This document shows, piece after piece, positions 2,008 to 64,000 of a DNA stretch of 64,000 nt. Both the position numbers and the translations under genes were made by a program. Positions within the stretch are counted from its first letter, which is position 1, and each line of letters begins with the position of its first letter. This DNA comes from Lachnospiraceae bacterium (GTDB lineage Bacteria; Bacillota; Clostridia; Lachnospirales; Lachnospiraceae): positions 55,465 through 119,464 of the forward strand of contig JAFOEY010000027.1 of assembly GCA_017387565.1 (NCBI GenBank), written 5' to 3'. The notes beneath the pieces were generated by a model that worked only from the letters and a program-made list of their open reading frames with translations, did not search any database and had not been told where the DNA came from.

Positions 2008-2140
2008 CGTGATTTGTGTTCGTCTTCGAACAGTTGAAACCGGTCATTACTTTTGTTCGCTCATGACGCTAAGAAAGACACGAAACCTCGTAAAAGCCGG
2101 CGATAAAGATATAGAATGGGAACACAAATTCGAAAAGGGA
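2008..2140. repeat. Family A repeat, internally deleted copy
   Basis: Right half of the family A element: the core GTCTTCGAACAGTTGAAACC is followed by the conserved right arm ending in GGAACACAAATTCG. The left side keeps only GATTTGTGTTC, which can still pair with the right arm, so most of the left half is deleted. It lies between the flgJ-like terminator and recD2. Confidence 0.75.
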
Positions 2141-2176
2141 ATAATTTAAAGAGGCTGTCGCGTTCTGCAACAGCCC
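2141..2176 (-). terminator. Intrinsic terminator after the mbl-flagellar rod operon
   Basis: On the minus strand GGCTGTTGC and GCGACAGCC form a 9-bp stem around a 5-6 nt loop, followed by TCTTTAAATTATT. The T-run is imperfect, but position just after the flgJ-like stop fits. Confidence 0.65.
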
Positions 2177-8461: not shown

Positions 8462-10462
8462 TCATTCATCTATCTTTTCCAGATATTTTTTGAGTTCTAC
8501 CATCTTGTCACGAAGCTCTGCGGCCGCCTCAAAATTGAGATCCGCAGCAGCTTTTTTCATTTCTTTCTGCACTTTTCCAATCAGTTTTTCCAGTTCCTCC
8601 CTGCTCATAGACTCCGGATCTTTTTCAAAGGTCATCTCTTCTTTTGCAATGGTCTTAGAAATACTGATCAAATCGCGGACAGCCTTCTTGATGGTGGTCG
8701 GTGTAATTCCATGCTCTTCATTGTATGCCATCTGGATTTTTCGTCTTCTGGCGGTTTCTTCGATCGCATTCTTCATAGAATCGGTCATCGTATCCGCATA
8801 CATGATGACATGCCCTTCCGCATTTCTGGCAGCACGTCCGATGGTCTGGATCAAAGAGGTAGTCGATCTTAAAAATCCCTCTTTATCCGCATCGATGATA
8901 GCCACAAGAGAAATCTCGGGAATATCCAGACCTTCTCTCAACAAATTGATTCCGACCAGAACATCAAAAACATCCAGTCTCATGTCGCGGATAATTTCCG
9001 CACGTTCCAAAGTATCGATATCCGAATGCAAATATTTTACCCGGATACCGACCTCTTTCATATAATCGGTCAGATCTTCTGCCATACGTTTGGTCAGTGT
9101 CGTCACAAGTACTTTGTTCTTTTTGGCAACTTCTGTGTTGATTTCCGAAATCAGATCGTCAATCTGACCTTCCACCGGTCTTACAAACACTTCCGGATCC
9201 AGCAATCCTGTCGGCCGGATAATCTGTTCCGCACGGAGCATCTCGTGCTCCTCTTCATAGACAGAAGGTGTTGCCGATACAAACAACATCTGATCTATTC
9301 TACTTTCAAATTCTTCAAAGTTGAGCGGTCGGTTGTCCATCGCAGAAGGAAGACGGAAACCATAATCAACCAACGTCGTTTTTCTGGAGCGGTCTCCAAA
9401 ATACATACCGCGAATCTGCGGAACCGTCATGTGTGATTCGTCTATGATAATCAGAAAATCATCCTTGAAGAAATCGATCAGTGTATGCGGCGGTTCTCCT
9501 GCTTTCATACCGCTTAAATGCCGGGAATAATTTTCAATGCCGCTGCAAAAACCGGTTTCGCGCAGCATTTCCACATCAAAGTTCGTCCGTTCTGACACGC
9601 GCTGTGCCTCTAAGAGCTTGTCCTCTCCCTTAAAATAGCGCACACGTTCTTCTAACTCCTGTTCAATGTCTTTACATGCCCGGTTTATTTTTTCCTGCGG
9701 AACTACATAATGCGATGCCGGGAAAATAGAAACATGATTTAATTCCGTCATTACTTTCCCAAGTAAAGGATCCACTTCACAGATTCGGTCAATCTCATCC
9801 CCGAAATACTCCACACGAATCAGATAATCTCCACCCTGAGCGGGATTAATCTCAATCGTATCGCCTCGAACTCTGAAACAGCTTCGGTCCAGATCCATAT
9901 CGTTGCGCAGATACTGGATGGCAATCAGTTCCCGGATAACTTCATCCCGATCCTTTTCCATCCCGGGACGCAAAGATACAATCATCCCCTGATAATCGTC
10001 CGGACTTCCCAGACCATAAATACAGGATACGGAAGATACAACAATCACATCCCGCCTTTCTGCCAAAGATGCCGTCGCTGAAAGCCGTAATTTATCAATC
10101 TCATCATTAATGGAAGAATCTTTTTCGATATAAGTATCCGTCGATGGCACATATGCCTCCGGCTGATAATAATCATAATAAGATACAAAATATTCTACCG
10201 CATTTTCCGGAAAAAATTCTTTAAACTCGCCATAAAGTTGCCCCGCCAGTGTCTTATTGTGTGCAATGATTAGCGTCGGCTTATTTAATGCCGCAATGAC
10301 ATTGGCCATGGTAAAGGTTTTACCGGAGCCGGTCGCACCAAGCAAAGTCTCAAACTGATATCCCTTTTTAAATCCTTCTACAAGCTGCTCAATCGCCTGC
10401 GGCTGATCACCTGTGGGCTGATATTCCGAATGTAATTTAAATATCGAATCCTGCTTAGCCAA
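8462..10462 (-). CDS. uvrB: Excinuclease ABC subunit UvrB
   Basis: UvrB helicase-like subunit that receives damaged DNA from UvrA and positions UvrC. The N-terminus has the [17 protein letters not shown] motif and Walker [11 protein letters not shown]; motif [11 protein letters not shown], and a C-terminal UVR domain ([13 protein letters not shown]) are present. The longest frame opens with ATG at 10513, but that codon lies inside the predicted -10 region. A TTG at 10462 has AGAAAGGA 8 nt upstream and gives 666 residues, normal for UvrB, so it is chosen. The beta-hairpin region ([20 protein letters not shown]) is intact. Confidence 0.96.
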
Positions 10463-10503
10463 TTTCTTAATCCTTTCTTCATAAATAAGATAACCGCGTA
10501 TGA

Positions 10504-10532
10504 AGTATACCATACTCCAATGCGGTTTGCAA
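10504..10532 (-). promoter_or_regulatory. Sigma-A-type promoter for uvrB-uvrA
   Basis: Minus strand TTGCAA, 17-nt spacer, TATACT. The predicted transcription start falls about 40 nt upstream of the TTG start of uvrB. Confidence 0.75.
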
Positions 10533-10543
10533 ACATTTGTTCT
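10529..10543. promoter_or_regulatory. Candidate LexA/DinR (SOS) operator
   Basis: AGAACAAATGTTTGC on the minus strand resembles the Gram-positive SOS box (GAAC, 4 nt, GTTC) with one arm reading GTTT. It overlaps the -35 of the uvrB promoter, a position suited to repression. uvrBA is a typical LexA target in Firmicutes. Confidence 0.55.
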
Positions 10544-10577
10544 GTTTTTCTATCCTTTTAGATTTATATTTCCGTAC

Positions 10578-10810
10578 GCCAGTCGTCCTTACAAAAATAT
10601 ATATCTTTGCCGCTTCATACTTCGGTTTCTGGCATTTCTAAGCGGCATGCTCACAAAATATATATTAAATGCCCGGTTTCAAAACTCAGACTTCGTCTTC
10701 AGACAGTTGAAACCGGGCATTATTTTTGTTCGCTTATGCCGCTAAGAAATGCCAAGAAACCTCGCTAAATTCCGCAGGCAAAGATATATATTTTTGTAAG
10801 GACGACTGGC
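10578..10810. repeat. Family A repeat, complete 233-bp palindromic element
   Basis: The first 34 nt (starting GCCAGTCGTCCTTAC, ending ATCTTTGCC) are perfectly complementary to the last 34 nt. A second internal hairpin, TGCCCGGTTTCAA with TTGAAACCGGGCA, surrounds the centre, and intermediate segments (TTCTAAGCGGCATG with its partner near ATGCCGCTAAGAA) also pair. The core is shared with copies at 47.8 kb and 59.3 kb, but the outermost arm bases are specific to this copy. It lies between the GT14-like gene and the uvrB promoter; the remaining roughly 90 bp to the next gene holds nothing recognisable. Confidence 0.9.
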
Positions 10811-10903
10811 TATGTCCCCAAAATTGCGAATAATAAAAAGTGAGAAGCGACGCCAGAGAAAAAAGTCTGCAACTAAGGTCGAAAGCACCCTATATTCGCA
10901 TTT

Positions 10904-11797
10904 TCATGCATCCCACAATTCATTCCGAATCCGCTCTTTCAACTTTGCAGATTCTTTTCCGTGGAATTTTCTGGCAAATATGCAGTTACTCTTTGCTAAC
11001 TCTTCAAAATCAGAGTCATCCAGATACACCGGACTGCCACCATCTCCCCGCTCCCAGTTCATAAAACGCAATTCTCTGTCAACGATGTGGCTTTTCCATT
11101 TGCCATCACAGAATTTCTCATTTAAAAGTAAAGTATGGAAGAAAAATTCCTCCGGTAACTGGCACCGGTATAAATCCTTTTCATATTCCGGATGACTTAT
11201 CAGGTAAGTAAGAATATCCTTTGCCGCCGCAACCGGCATGGATATATAGACCAGACCTTTATAGATTTCATCAAACTCTCCCAGTCCTTTACGCTTTATT
11301 CCGATTATCTTTTGCAAAAAGACCGTGAAATCCTGAATTAGCCAGAGAATTTTATTTTTTACATTTTTATCCTGAAAAAAATTATAATAGTAATAGCGTT
11401 TTTTCACGGCTTCGTTAAAATCACGTTCCGCAATATAACTCAAATATATATGTTCATCCTCTATAAACTGCTCATGGATTTTTGAAGGCGGCATGAGCAA
11501 ATAATCTTCTCCGGTCAGCATATGGATGTAGGAAACCTCCGGATTCTCTACTGCTCTTTTCATCAAAGACAGCAGAGCCTTTACATGATTGTAACCACCC
11601 CATGCAATGTCAAATTCTTTATACGCCACACAGTTAGCAAGAGCATTGAGTTTTTCCAATTCCGGTTCAGAAAGCTGTGTGCTTTTTTTATCTACATGAA
11701 TATAGACATCATCTTCTTTACACAAAAAAGAGGCCAGTTCATACACTGCATCAAAATCCTTGTATGCAGTTAATAAATAGGCCTGTTTTTTGCTCAT
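10904..11797 (-). CDS. GT14-like (core-2/I-branching type) glycosyltransferase
   Basis: A 297-residue protein resembling the core-2/I-branching beta-1,6-N-acetylglucosaminyltransferase family (CAZy GT14). Seen in sequence: an N-terminal YLLTAYKDFDAVYELASFL strand-helix, YIHVDKKS, WGGYNHVKALLSLM and YIHMLTGEDYLL, the hallmark blocks of bacterial members. No signal peptide or membrane segment, so it probably acts on the cytoplasmic face on a nucleotide-sugar donor. The acceptor is unknown; bacterial homologues usually sit in capsule or surface-glycan loci, but here the gene is a singleton between a family A and a family B repeat, so context gives no substrate. A stand-alone surface-polysaccharide modification enzyme is inferred. 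Confidence 0.75.
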   Translation of the reverse strand: MSKKQAYLLTAYKDFDAVYELASFLCKEDDVYIHVDKKSTQLSEPELEKLNALANCVAYKEFDIAWGGYNHVKALLSLMKRAVENPEVSYIHMLTGEDYLLMPPSKIHEQFIEDEHIYLSYIAERDFNEAVKKRYYYYNFFQDKNVKNKILWLIQDFTVFLQKIIGIKRKGLGEFDEIYKGLVYISMPVAAAKDILTYLISHPEYEKDLYRCQLPEEFFFHTLLLNEKFCDGKWKSHIVDRELRFMNWERGDGGSPVYLDDSDFEELAKSNCIFARKFHGKESAKLKERIRNELWDA

Positions 11798-20503: not shown

Positions 20504-20662
20504 AGTTGTGCGGCTAAGATATTTTATATATTCTTCTCACAGACTGTATGACAACGTCAGCACTTAATGAGCAATTTATTGCGAATTTAGTACTGCTACG
20601 TTGTCATCCAAGTGAGAACGCGTCTGTAAGAAGAATATATAAAATATCTTAGCCGCACAACT
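20504..20662. repeat. Family C repeat, 159-bp element with 34-bp inverted arms
   Basis: Arms beginning AGTTGTGCGGCTAAG and ending CTTAGCCGCACAACT are perfectly complementary over 34 nt. The 91-nt core contains a second hairpin (ATGACAACGT with ACGTTGTCAT) and the segments CACTTAATGAGCAATTTATT and AAGTGAGAACGCGTCTG, which recur at 40.3 kb. It starts 18 nt beyond the hflC stop and could also end that transcript. Confidence 0.88.
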
Positions 20663-23374: not shown

Positions 23375-23485
23375 ATGATGTTGGGGTCAAAAGGTATTTT
23401 GCCCCCATGATACCAACGGATTGCTACGCACTTTGTGCTCTCGCAATCCTAAAACATTCGAAATCCGCCCTAATCGGGCTACTTT
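23375..23485. repeat. Family B repeat, truncated copy overlapping a stop codon
   Basis: Runs from ATGATGTTGGGGTC through hairpins TTGGGG...CCCCCA and GGATTGC...GCAATCC to CGGGCTACTTT, where it is cut. Its last bases supply the final AAG TAG of the flavoprotein gene. It is inverted relative to the full copy at 24.4 kb, and the two bracket that gene. Confidence 0.85.
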
Positions 23486-24336
23486 ATTGCATTCAAATAA
23501 GATACTGCAGATAACGCAGCCACATTTCCCTCACCGGCTGCCTTAATATATTGATAAGGAATTCCCGTACAATCCCCGCATGCAAAACAACCTTTTAGAT
23601 TGGTCTCCATATTGCGATTAACTAAAATGTGATTCCCCTCCACGGTTAATCCCGGAACCAGACTCTGGGGAAATACGCTGTCTCTTAAAATAAAAATACC
23701 ATCCACAGACAATTCATCATTTTCAAAAACCAGCTTGTCCGCCTTTATCGCCCCCATAATAGAAACCGGTTTTTCATTTCGTACGGTAATATCTTTATTA
23801 AATGATACTTTCTCAGAATACAAGGGTATATAATAGACTTTTTTTGCTATTTCCGCCATAAATTCAGCTTCCGCCTCTTCTTTTGGAGAGGTTCCGATGA
23901 TTGCCACAGTCTTGTCACGATATAGCAACGCATCACAGGTTGCGCAATAACTGACACCTCTTCCCAAAAATTCTTCTTCTCCGGGATAGGGCTTTTCAAA
24001 ACTGATACCGGTCGCCAAAATCACGCTTTTCGCTTCATATATGTGATTGCTTTTAGTCTGTATCGAAAACATCTCACCCATTGCATAAACGGCAGAAACC
24101 AATTCCTGTGTGATTTGAATTCCAAGACTGTCAATATGTTTCTTCAGATTTTTTGCAAGTTCTTCTCCTGATACATCAGGCAAACCCGGATAGTTCCGAA
24201 TCAGATGAGCTTTCCCTATTTTATCGCTCAGATGAGCGCTCCCAAATAAAAGGATCTCTTTGTTGCGGATTTTCAAAGTAATTGCGGCAGATAAACCTGC
24301 CGGTCCGGTCCCAATGACTGCCACATCATAACGCAT
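23479..24336 (-). CDS. Thioredoxin-reductase-like flavoprotein, probably not NADPH-dependent
   Basis: A 285-residue FAD disulfide reductase. FAD motif GTGPAG (residues 9-14), redox-active CATC (131-134), the ATG motif at 108-110 and the C-terminal FAD motif CFACGDCTG are all present. The NADPH-binding features of ordinary TrxB are missing: the GGGxxA loop is replaced by IIGTSPKEEAE (about 146-156) and there is no HRRxxxR; the protein is about 25 residues short. This matches the known class of ferredoxin-linked, pyridine-nucleotide-independent reductases (FFTR) described in clostridia, whose partner would be the adjacent thioredoxin. The stop codon lies in a family B repeat. A ferredoxin partner is inferred only. 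Confidence 0.85.
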   Translation of the reverse strand: MRYDVAVIGTGPAGLSAAITLKIRNKEILLFGSAHLSDKIGKAHLIRNYPGLPDVSGEELAKNLKKHIDSLGIQITQELVSAVYAMGEMFSIQTKSNHIYEAKSVILATGISFEKPYPGEEEFLGRGVSYCATCDALLYRDKTVAIIGTSPKEEAEAEFMAEIAKKVYYIPLYSEKVSFNKDITVRNEKPVSIMGAIKADKLVFENDELSVDGIFILRDSVFPQSLVPGLTVEGNHILVNRNMETNLKGCFACGDCTGIPYQYIKAAGEGNVAALSAVSYLNAIK

Positions 24337-24436: not shown

Positions 24437-24623
24437 ATGATACCAGGGTCAAAAGGTCATACTTTTCATGCTCGCATGAAAAAGTATGACTTTGGGACCC
24501 GCAAAACATGAGAAAGTAGCCCGATCAGAGCGGATTTCGATTGTTTACGGATTGCGAGAGCACAAAGTGCGTAGCAATCCGTTGGTATCATGGGGTCAAA
24601 ATACCTTTTGACCCCAACATCAT
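24437..24623. repeat. Family B repeat, full-length 187-bp copy
   Basis: Order: ATGATACC; hairpin GGGTC...GACCC containing GTCATACTTTT/AAAAGTATGAC and a CATG-CTCG-CATG tip; a GCCCGAT...CGGATTTCG segment; hairpin CGGATTGCG...GCAATCCG; GGTATCAT, which pairs with the first block; and a final hairpin TGGGGTC...GACCCCA. A 10-bp direct repeat TCATTGTATG lies at both ends (24430-24439 and 24620-24629). The 100 nt between this and the flavoprotein gene are AT-rich without features. Confidence 0.9.
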
Positions 24624-24717
24624 TGTATGCAATTTATTATGTTTTGTCGAATTATTTTTCTATATTTTATTTTTCCCTATTATTTTTCTATTTTCTATTT
24701 TTCCCAAAATACAATAA

Positions 24718-24793
24718 TACTTCAGTTTTTAGACTTTCTAAGCGGCATGGCGAGTAAAGATATATATTGGCAACACGAATCCGAAAAGAGAAT
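24718..24793. repeat. Family A repeat remnant
   Basis: Contains the TTAGACTTTCTAAGCGGCATGGCGAG-type left block (read in two parts) fused directly to a right arm AAAGATATATATTGG...CCGAAAAGAG. The core hairpin is deleted. Confidence 0.7.
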
Positions 24794-26562: not shown

Positions 26563-26612
26563 TCACTATTCCATGTATTATTTTTTCCATATATTATTTT
26601 TTATTATTTCCA

Positions 26613-26745
26613 TTTTGGGATTTTTGTTCCCATTATATATCTTTGCCGCCTTGTACTTCGTTTTCCGGCTTCAAACAACACGCCCACAAAGTATTATTAA
26701 AAACCGGTCTCAAAACTCAGACTTTTTCTTCAGACAATTTACAAC
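26613..26745. repeat. Family A repeat, left half only
   Basis: Left arm TTTTGGGATTTTTGTTCCCA, then ATATATCTTTGCCGCC, the diverged left block and the core ACCGGTCTCAAAACTCAGAC up to about TTCAGACAATTT. The right arm is missing. It lies between the glgP terminator and the trp promoter. Confidence 0.75.
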
Positions 26746-40175: not shown

Positions 40176-40235
40176 TCTTTGGGATTTTATATATTCTGCG
40201 TACAGACACATTCTTTCTTGTCGACTCTTTTCCGT

Positions 40236-40378
40236 CATCTGCCGGATTTATATATTCTGCGCACAGACTGTATTTGGGCGTCAGCATTTAATGAGCAATT
40301 TATTGCGAATTTAGTACTGCTACGTTGATATCCAAGTGAGAACGCGTCTGGAAGCAGAATATATAAATCCGGCAGATG
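40236..40378. repeat. Family C repeat, 143-bp copy with different arms
   Basis: Perfect 25-bp arms beginning CATCTGCCGGATTT and ending AAATCCGGCAGATG enclose the same core as at 20.5 kb (AATGAGCAATTTATTGCG, AACGCGTCTG). The outer arm bases differ from that copy yet remain complementary. A broken extra left arm (TTTATATATTCTGCGTACAGACA, in two parts) lies at about 40193-40215. It sits between trmR and trhP. Confidence 0.85.
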
Positions 40379-47742: not shown

Positions 47743-47973
47743 GAGTCGCCCAAATAAAAAATGATATATCTTTGCCCGCCGGCTTTTACGAGGTTTTGTG
47801 ACTTTCTTAGCGGCATGGCGAACAAAATTAATGCCCGGTTTCAACTGTTTGAAGACGAAGTCTGAGTTTTGAAACCGGGCATTTATATATAATTTTGTGA
47901 GCATGCCGCTTAGAAAGTCTAAAAACCGAAGTACGAGGCGGCAAAGATATATCATTTTTTATTTGGGCGACTC
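47743..47973. repeat. Family A repeat, complete 231-bp element
   Basis: Perfect 34-bp complementary arms beginning GAGTCGCCCAAATAAAAA and ending ATTTGGGCGACTC; inverted relative to the 10.6-kb copy. Core hairpin TGCCCGGTTTCAA/TTGAAACCGGGCA is identical to that copy. It lies exactly between the convergent pilin and thiI genes and may end both transcripts. Confidence 0.9.
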
Positions 47974-59245: not shown

Positions 59246-59482
59246 CTTTTCGGATTTGTGTTCTCAATATATATCTTTGCACGCCTCGTACTTCGGTTTT
59301 TAGCCTCTCTAAGCAGCATGCTCACAAAATATTATAAAATGCACGGTTTCAAAACTCAGACTTTGTCTTCAAACAGTTGAAACCGTGCATTCTTTTTTTG
59401 TTCGCCATGCCGCTAAGACAGGCACAAAACCTCGTAAAAGCCGGCGCGCAAAGATATATATTGAGAACACAAATCCAAAAAG
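59246..59482. repeat. Family A repeat, complete 237-bp element
   Basis: 35-nt arms (left CTTTTCGGATTTGTG..., right ...CACAAATCCAAAAAG) pair with one mismatch. Core hairpin is TGCACGGTTTCAA/TTGAAACCGTGCA, a C-to-A/G-to-T paired change from the CCCGG version in other copies. Located between the DUF6465 terminator and the hrcA promoter. Confidence 0.9.
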
Positions 59483-60949: not shown

Positions 60950-61106
60950 ATGATACCCACGGATTGCTACGCACTACGTGCTCCCGCAATCCGTAAAACA
61001 TTCGAAATCCGCCCTATTCGGGCTACTTTCTCATGTTTTGCGGGTCCCAATGTCATACTGTTTCATGCAAGCATGAACAGTATGACCTTTGGACCCTGGT
61101 ATCATC
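60950..61106. repeat. Family B repeat with compensated first hairpin
   Basis: Reverse-oriented copy from ATGATACC to GGTATCAT, lacking the last TGGGGTC hairpin. Its long hairpin reads GTCATACTGTT/AACAGTATGAC where other copies read GTCATACTTTT/AAAAGTATGAC, a paired substitution. It starts 5 nt after the SGNH gene stop. Confidence 0.88.
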
Positions 61107-63860: not shown

Positions 63861-64000
63861 ATGATACCAGGGTCAAAAGGTCATACTTTTCATGCTCGCA
63901 TGAAAAAGTATGACTTTGGGACCCGCAAAACATGAGAAAGTAGCCCGATTAGGGCGAATTTCGATTGTTTACGGATTGCGAGAGCACAAAGTGCGTAGCA
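63861..64000. repeat. Family B repeat, cut by window edge
   Basis: ATGATACCAGGGTC through the long hairpin, CGGATTGCGAG and onwards to GCGTAGCA at the edge; nearly identical to the copy at 24.4 kb and in the same orientation. The 115 nt between it and the MBOAT start contain no other feature. Confidence 0.9.

Follow-up and report, generated by a model that had tools for sequence, protein, structure and literature searches.

Three long palindromes at 10.6, 47.8 and 59.3 kb of a 64-kb stretch of DNA (the whole stretch that was analysed, in the following called the window) raise the question of what keeps the two arms of one copy complementary when the outer arms differ from copy to copy. In this study, we compared these palindromes, here named family A, with their further copies in the same genome and with the copies of related genomes at the same sites.

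Copies, anatomy and subfamilies

Complete copies at 10.6, 47.8 and 59.3 kb with a shared core and differing, self-complementary arms had been proposed in the original prediction and were recovered here, with 34/34, 34/34 and 38/40 complementary positions. The proposed common arm base was also found, as ATATATCTTTGC forms the base of the arm on both sides in all three. The 233-nt strand from 10578 to 10810 folds at -82.5 kcal/mol (z -19.8), whereas 200 dinucleotide shuffles gave -22.1 kcal/mol (sd 3.1) and none of them was equally low. For this copy the predicted palindrome stands and its boundary does not: similarity to the family extends from 10571 to 10905, so that the copy is longer than assumed and the sequence on its right side up to 10905 belongs to it. 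The following features were assigned in the window:

10578..10611, plus strand: left outer arm of the 10.6-kb copy (L051), subfamily a in the genome-wide table, 34 nt, 100% complementary to 10777-10810
10777..10810, minus strand: right outer arm of the 10.6-kb copy, by inverted-repeat match
10612..10776, plus strand: shared core with nested stems, from the fold and from 67 core copies genome-wide
10668..10727, plus strand: innermost hairpin AATGCCCGGTTTCA...TGAAACCGGGCATT with a T-rich run after it, from sequence and fold; terminator-like by eye
10811..10905, plus strand: right-hand remainder of the full-length element, from family similarity to 10905 and alignment with relatives
about 10554..10573, plus strand: degenerate b-type end CCTTTTAGATTTATATTTCC left of the 10.6-kb copy, by eye against the b end pattern
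47743..47973, minus strand: second complete copy with its core on the minus strand, from arms (47743-47776 and 47940-47973, 34 nt, 100% complementary), core match and family similarity; its sister copy is L082
59246..59482, plus strand: third complete copy, subfamily b, from arms (59246-59285 and 59443-59482, 40 nt, 95% complementary) and family similarity
2019..2142, minus strand: truncated copy, by family similarity
24717..24793, minus strand: decayed fragment, by family similarity
26608..26736, plus strand: decayed copy (L165), by core match and family similarity

About 65 such long palindromes are scattered through the genome of this uncultured gut bacterium (G000, a 2.9-Mb draft of 69 contigs), in which the core pattern has 67 matches with up to 3 mismatches and the reversed control pattern none. 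A search of 41 genomes for the element gave matches in four, namely its own, G004 (JAGAJL) and G008 (CAMEJJ), the latter two being congeners with dozens of copies each, and G001 with one weak match. Among the matches listed (at least 82 stretches), the named records with the core are three Lachnospiraceae MAGs, almost all rows coming from two of them; the relatives' copies analysed here are a sample taken from these listed matches. All genomes compared are drafts, and the occurrence of the same element with the same near flanks on two contigs of the draft genome (L015 on C67 and L016 on C56) is likely an assembly duplicate or a strain variant.

From the inside outward, a copy consists of the innermost hairpin, a middle stem, an asymmetric internal loop, a conserved TATATCTTTG block and the outer arm. 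The nested structure is retained in the 95 complete copies that were aligned, and the ATATATCTTTGC block is the most conserved part of their arms. The ACTTCGG side of the asymmetric loop lies only on the left in 92 of the 95, on both sides in one and on neither side in two; since the loop is kept asymmetric, conversion tracts appear to cross it seldom. Outer arms are of two wholly different kinds, a, resembling AGTCGTCCTTACAGAAA, and b, resembling TTTTCGGATTTGTGTTCCC, and the 37 complete own copies comprise 14 with a/a, 11 with b/b and 12 with one or both arms eroded or unclassified. In the full form of about 480 bp, b ends enclose an a module; one such copy in CAMEJJ (L074) has 482 nt between its b ends and folds as one near-continuous hairpin. 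This full-length form has probably given rise to the shorter a and b forms. L141 and L142 are loci of the relatives and stand outside the own-copy, ortholog and gene-context counts.

Reduced forms were also observed. In a full-length element (L184, G000:C4:135847-136136) the core is absent between the inner arms, and a minimal form (L186, G000:C37:152492-152540) has lost the core completely and is left with two b ends and an 11-nt loop between them. A copy of which scarcely more than the terminator-like hairpin is left lies in opposite orientations beside the same gene end in the two species compared (L153, G000:C26, and L073); as judged by eye, the own copy L153 seems to have shrunk via deletion between two CTCACAAAGT repeats.

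If the arms fell into a few fixed subfamilies inherited as units, the copies would be ordinary sequence subfamilies, as had been pointed out beforehand. The two subfamilies a and b do exist, but they leave the matched variation inside each subfamily unaccounted for. Arm identity within copies versus between copies was 0.926 versus 0.799 for own a arms (n=14), 0.898 versus 0.848 for own b arms (n=11), 0.917 versus 0.803 for the relatives' a arms (n=26) and 0.924 versus 0.860 for their b arms (n=14). An arm's own partner was its best match, alone or tied, in 11/14, 8/11, 13/26 and 9/14 cases, in the same order. Also, the outer modules of the longer copies contain 27 arm-matched runs of 12-28 nt that are present in at most three other copies, orthologs being counted separately, compared with a mean of 4.0 (range 1-10) when left and right flanks were shuffled among copies in 20 shuffles.

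Matched changes and inversions at orthologous sites

Own copies were paired through their flanks with the relatives' copies at the same site. After removal of pairs with less than 86% element identity or with short context, 22 ortholog pairs at 19 own sites (some sites counting twice) were available for the counting of double changes, five of the pairs being inverted. In a consensus fold of the 95 complete copies, gaps in the alignment caused the middle stem to be lost, and therefore single-copy folds were used for the ortholog tests. In 11 of the 22 pairs, 17 stem pairs in total were altered on both sides and are Watson-Crick pairs in both genomes; an eighteenth double change (L020/L067, outside the inverted stretch) was discarded as a swapped-flank artefact. 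With the partner slid by 2-6 nt either way, 0, 0, 0, 0, 0, 1, 1, 2, 2 and 3 double changes were counted, and at most about 1.1 are expected under independence. Homogenisation of the arms in situ, one of the two footprints expected of template switching, was thus found in 17 stem pairs compared with 0-3 in the slid controls, a pattern to which selection for pairing may also have contributed. Matched changes include an A to T in both arms of L015/L094, two A to C in both arms of L027/L101 and CGTTG versus CTTTG in both arms of L020/L067; between the 47.8-kb copy and L082, four pairs are changed and zero single changes were counted. Transversions account for 6/17 matched changes (A-T>T-A twice, A-T>C-G three times and G-C>T-A once), and these cannot be reached by two single steps through a wobble. 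If sites at which different subfamilies meet are included, 60 double changes result, a total that was left unused.

The same 22 pairs contain 93 stem pairs changed on one side and four changed on both sides in a non-complementary way. As unmatched changes thereby outnumber the matched ones (17-18), homogenisation appears to be slow or partial. Per base, change amounts to about 3.5% at paired sites versus 9% at unpaired ones and is slowest in the terminator-like stem, a hint that the stems are under some selection.

For the analysis of orientation, a list of 52 site pairs was made after removing duplicate loci of the same genomes; the relative has no core in seven of these, leaving 45. Of the 45 own-to-relative pairs, which cover 36 own sites, 10 pairs at 10 own sites have collinear flanks and a core of opposite orientation; between the two relatives this applies to 2 of 13 pairs, partly at the same sites. 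Nine of the inverted pairs could be tested against the approximately 142 copies listed. In five of them, none of these copies matches as closely as the inverted ortholog, although the margin is small for L017 and L020; this points to the same element having been turned. In-place inversion of the spacer, the second footprint of template switching, was thus found as well (10/45 pairs; ortholog closest in 5/9). In the remaining 4/9 another of these listed copies is closer, the ortholog in L034/L098 ranking ninth. Pairs in the same orientation have the ortholog as the closest or tied copy of this list in 15/30 cases and not as the closest in 15/30. Where the ortholog is not closest, replacement by another copy or a fresh insertion is possible.

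Proposed template switching and competing explanations

Both footprints of template switching are present in family A at the scale of whole repeats. This suggests slow copying between the two halves of a palindrome, with an occasional in-place flip of its middle part. During replication, the nascent strand would switch between the two arms. A switch within one stem would copy one arm onto the other, resulting in homogenisation, and one switch in each arm would invert the spacer; thereby, arms would drift together within a copy and diverge between copies. The excess of unmatched changes, the slower stems and the rarely symmetrised loop point to a process that is slow, acts within continuous stems and operates alongside some selection. 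Of the three origins initially envisaged for the matched arms, maintenance by template switching is the best supported, through in-situ double changes and in-place inversions from which we infer the mechanism. Family A is probably a non-autonomous, almost wholly palindromic, MITE-like element, located mostly at gene 3' ends, and template switching probably maintains the complementarity of its arms in situ.

Ordinary subfamilies combined with repeated insertion or ectopic conversion would also yield matched arms, since arms would be born matched and any change at a site would mean replacement by another copy. This happens at some sites: at 59.3 kb, L063 (CAMEJJ) and L125 (JAGAJL) are full length and the window copy is of the b form and has another type of core, so whole copies have apparently also been replaced or re-inserted. 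Different forms with like boundaries were likewise seen for L060/L074 and L035/L139. The existence of two subfamilies and the four of nine inverted orthologs that are not the closest of the listed copies fit as well. As the general explanation, replacement is nevertheless unlikely, because the ortholog is closest among the approximately 142 copies listed in 5/9 inverted and 15/30 same-orientation pairs (ties included), and because matched changes occur within the ortholog-closest pairs L015/L094, L020/L067, L027/L101 and L052/L082.

Selection for base pairing, either of an RNA hairpin or of a DNA cruciform, would act on independent mutations by favouring a second change that restores pairing. 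It would agree with the slower change of stems relative to unpaired sites, most pronounced in the terminator-like stem (which shows hardly any variation), and with the nested structure kept in the 95 aligned complete copies. Selection on an RNA hairpin of the core strand would predict more G-U than A-C intermediates. In the middle stem, G-T mismatches do outnumber A-C ones (34 vs 17), a single column supplying 25 of the 34. In the outer arms (82 distinct) 24 G-T and 36 A-C mismatches were counted (two-sided p 0.16); G-T intermediates are hence not in excess, which speaks against RNA-level selection there. Considering also that 6/17 matched changes are transversions and that inversions are left unexplained, we hold pairing selection to be a rather improbable origin of the pattern, with selection at the cruciform level as a possible source of matched arms. 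Template switching, in comparison, would produce both matched changes and inversions.

A dedicated site-specific recombinase acting at the conserved inner arm ATATATCTTTGC would turn the elements into invertible terminators. Such an enzyme would be in line with the high conservation of this block within the arm and with the inversions happening in place. A plain crossover would not yield the matched changes located up to about 30 nt outside ATATATCTTTGC, however, and the outer arms differ wholly between subfamilies, so that there is little to recommend a recombinase.

Copying of the flank into an inverted repeat at insertion, one of the origins initially envisaged, is hardly credible and fails as a general rule, since the 10.6-kb site carries no arm in G001, G002 and G006 and arms recur as two subfamilies that otherwise belong to the family, and since its two supporting cases are weakened: the matched arms of L107 (JAGAJL), which run about 20 nt past the b end into a terminator-like hairpin, largely coincide with an imperfect hairpin that already exists in G000 and G008, and of the 13 nt that the left arm at the 10.6-kb site of G008 shares, inverted, with the downstream gene end, about 8, which L148 has as well, seem to be part of the element itself. 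In G001, G002 and G006, the flanks of which are 71-82% identical, the stretch between the anchors of the 10.6-kb site is free of core, arm and ATATATCTTTG block. As G000 and G008 have no insertion at the L107 site and already carry the terminator-like hairpin there, L107 appears to have landed inside it. Insertion into existing hairpins, also put forward originally, fits this one copy; at several other sites an intact terminator-like hairpin adjoins the element instead, as judged by eye.

The G008 copy at the 10.6-kb site is L111, and the gene end with which its left arm shares the inverted 13 nt corresponds to 10904-10926 of the window. The gene end in the window's genome is two bases off that of G008 (Asn-Thr to Asp-Ala in the last codons), both toward the arm sequence. 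The arm may have been copied into the coding end of the gene downstream of the 10.6-kb copy.

Mobility, gene context and related systems

In being short and non-coding, with terminal inverted repeats and many dispersed copies, family A agrees with MITEs. The b end pattern gave 84 matches with up to 3 mismatches and its reversed control none, and the flanks of the copies are T/A-rich. Among seven candidate empty sites, some of them ectopic or deletions, no clean one with a target-site duplication was present. Twenty b-end sites of the own genome were read by eye for an autonomous partner, and no transposase was evident between two ends. The REP/RAYT system was considered and rejected, as REP palindromes of 20-40 nt go with a Y1 transposase and family A measures about 230-480 bp. 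Judged by eye, the sole Y1_Tnp match in the own genome looks IS200-like; it is located on a separate contig.

Gene context was determined by crude ORF calls for the 64 distinct copies with enough flank among the 67 own cores. Neighbouring ORFs are convergent for 25, tandem for 31 and divergent for seven copies, and one copy has no call on one side; in 14 of the 37 complete copies, the ORF caller placed an ORF over the element. For 13 of 27 truncated copies, an ORF on the same strand ends at most 55 nt upstream of the hairpin. A rule-based terminator scan with loops of up to 8 gave no hit at the 10.6-kb copy, because its loop exceeds the rule. Use of family A hairpins as terminators is plausible. 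That family A constitutes a mobile, invertible, bidirectional terminator, which flips appreciably by template switching or a recombinase and thereby lets termination toward the neighbouring genes vary by lineage or cell, is a speculative extension which we consider doubtful.

In Rfam, family A stays below the gathering score of every family; at 10400-11000 there are sub-threshold matches only, to three long-hairpin miRNA models. In the openly accessible literature, searched with a limited set of terms, no description of family A or of in-place inversion in a bacterial MITE family was found.

Template switching has been reported to homogenise inverted-repeat arms and to invert spacers in yeast coding genes (PMC8604942), and it has been proposed as the source of compensatory changes and inverted loops in hairpins of rRNA (PMC8794818). 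The rRNA study describes compensatory changes combined with loop inversion as very rare and the evidence for stem maintenance as "circumstantial" (PMC8794818). Family A resembles this quasipalindrome correction in arm homogenisation and in-place spacer inversion. It differs in scale, since the inverted spacers or loops described there are short (2-5 substitutions; loops of 4-8 nt; PMC8604942, PMC8794818) and family A flips about 165-230 bp. Also, unlike the yeast and rRNA cases it is a dispersed repeat, dozens of copies of which act as replicates. Palindromes in nematomorph mitochondria likewise have perfect inverted repeats, for which template switching has been suggested as the cause of concerted arms; these are coding and mitochondrial, whereas family A is a dispersed repeat family (PMC6649704). 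The element bcr1 of the Bacillus cereus group, which stands for bacterial MITEs and stem-loop repeat families and is likened here by description, is short and dispersed with a conserved stem and tens of copies as well; in-place inversion and matched evolution are features of family A that are absent from the parts of the bcr1 account drawn on here (PMC2267715).

Changes that compensate each other in a hairpin are often taken as proof of a selected structure. Three related species with dozens of equivalent palindromes at orthologous positions allow selection to be set against copying from arm to arm, the telling evidence being matched transversions, the lack of a G-T excess in the outer arms and flips of elements of about 200 bp. 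Family A thus offers a natural data set for rates of repeat rewriting and inversion by template switching in bacteria. It also calls for caution where covariation is used for RNA discovery in repeat families.

Invertons, which are phase-variable invertible switches, are typically driven by a recombinase; for family A, a recombinase and a promoter function are hypothetical. Both have, in gut bacteria, a segment that can invert and is bounded by short inverted repeats (PMC11892184).

Clostridiales-1 RNA (RF01699) is, like family A, a dispersed palindromic repeat in the same window, with matches at 24438-24590, 60951-61104, 63862-64000 and 23411-23556; it differs in being an Rfam family, family A reaching no gathering score. 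At L036, RF01699-like sequence adjoins a family A fragment, as judged by eye. A second palindrome family (TTTATATATTCT...CACAGAC) is located at 20504-20662 and 40186-40378. Its outer arms also differ between the copies and match within each, and it perhaps shares the arm process of family A.
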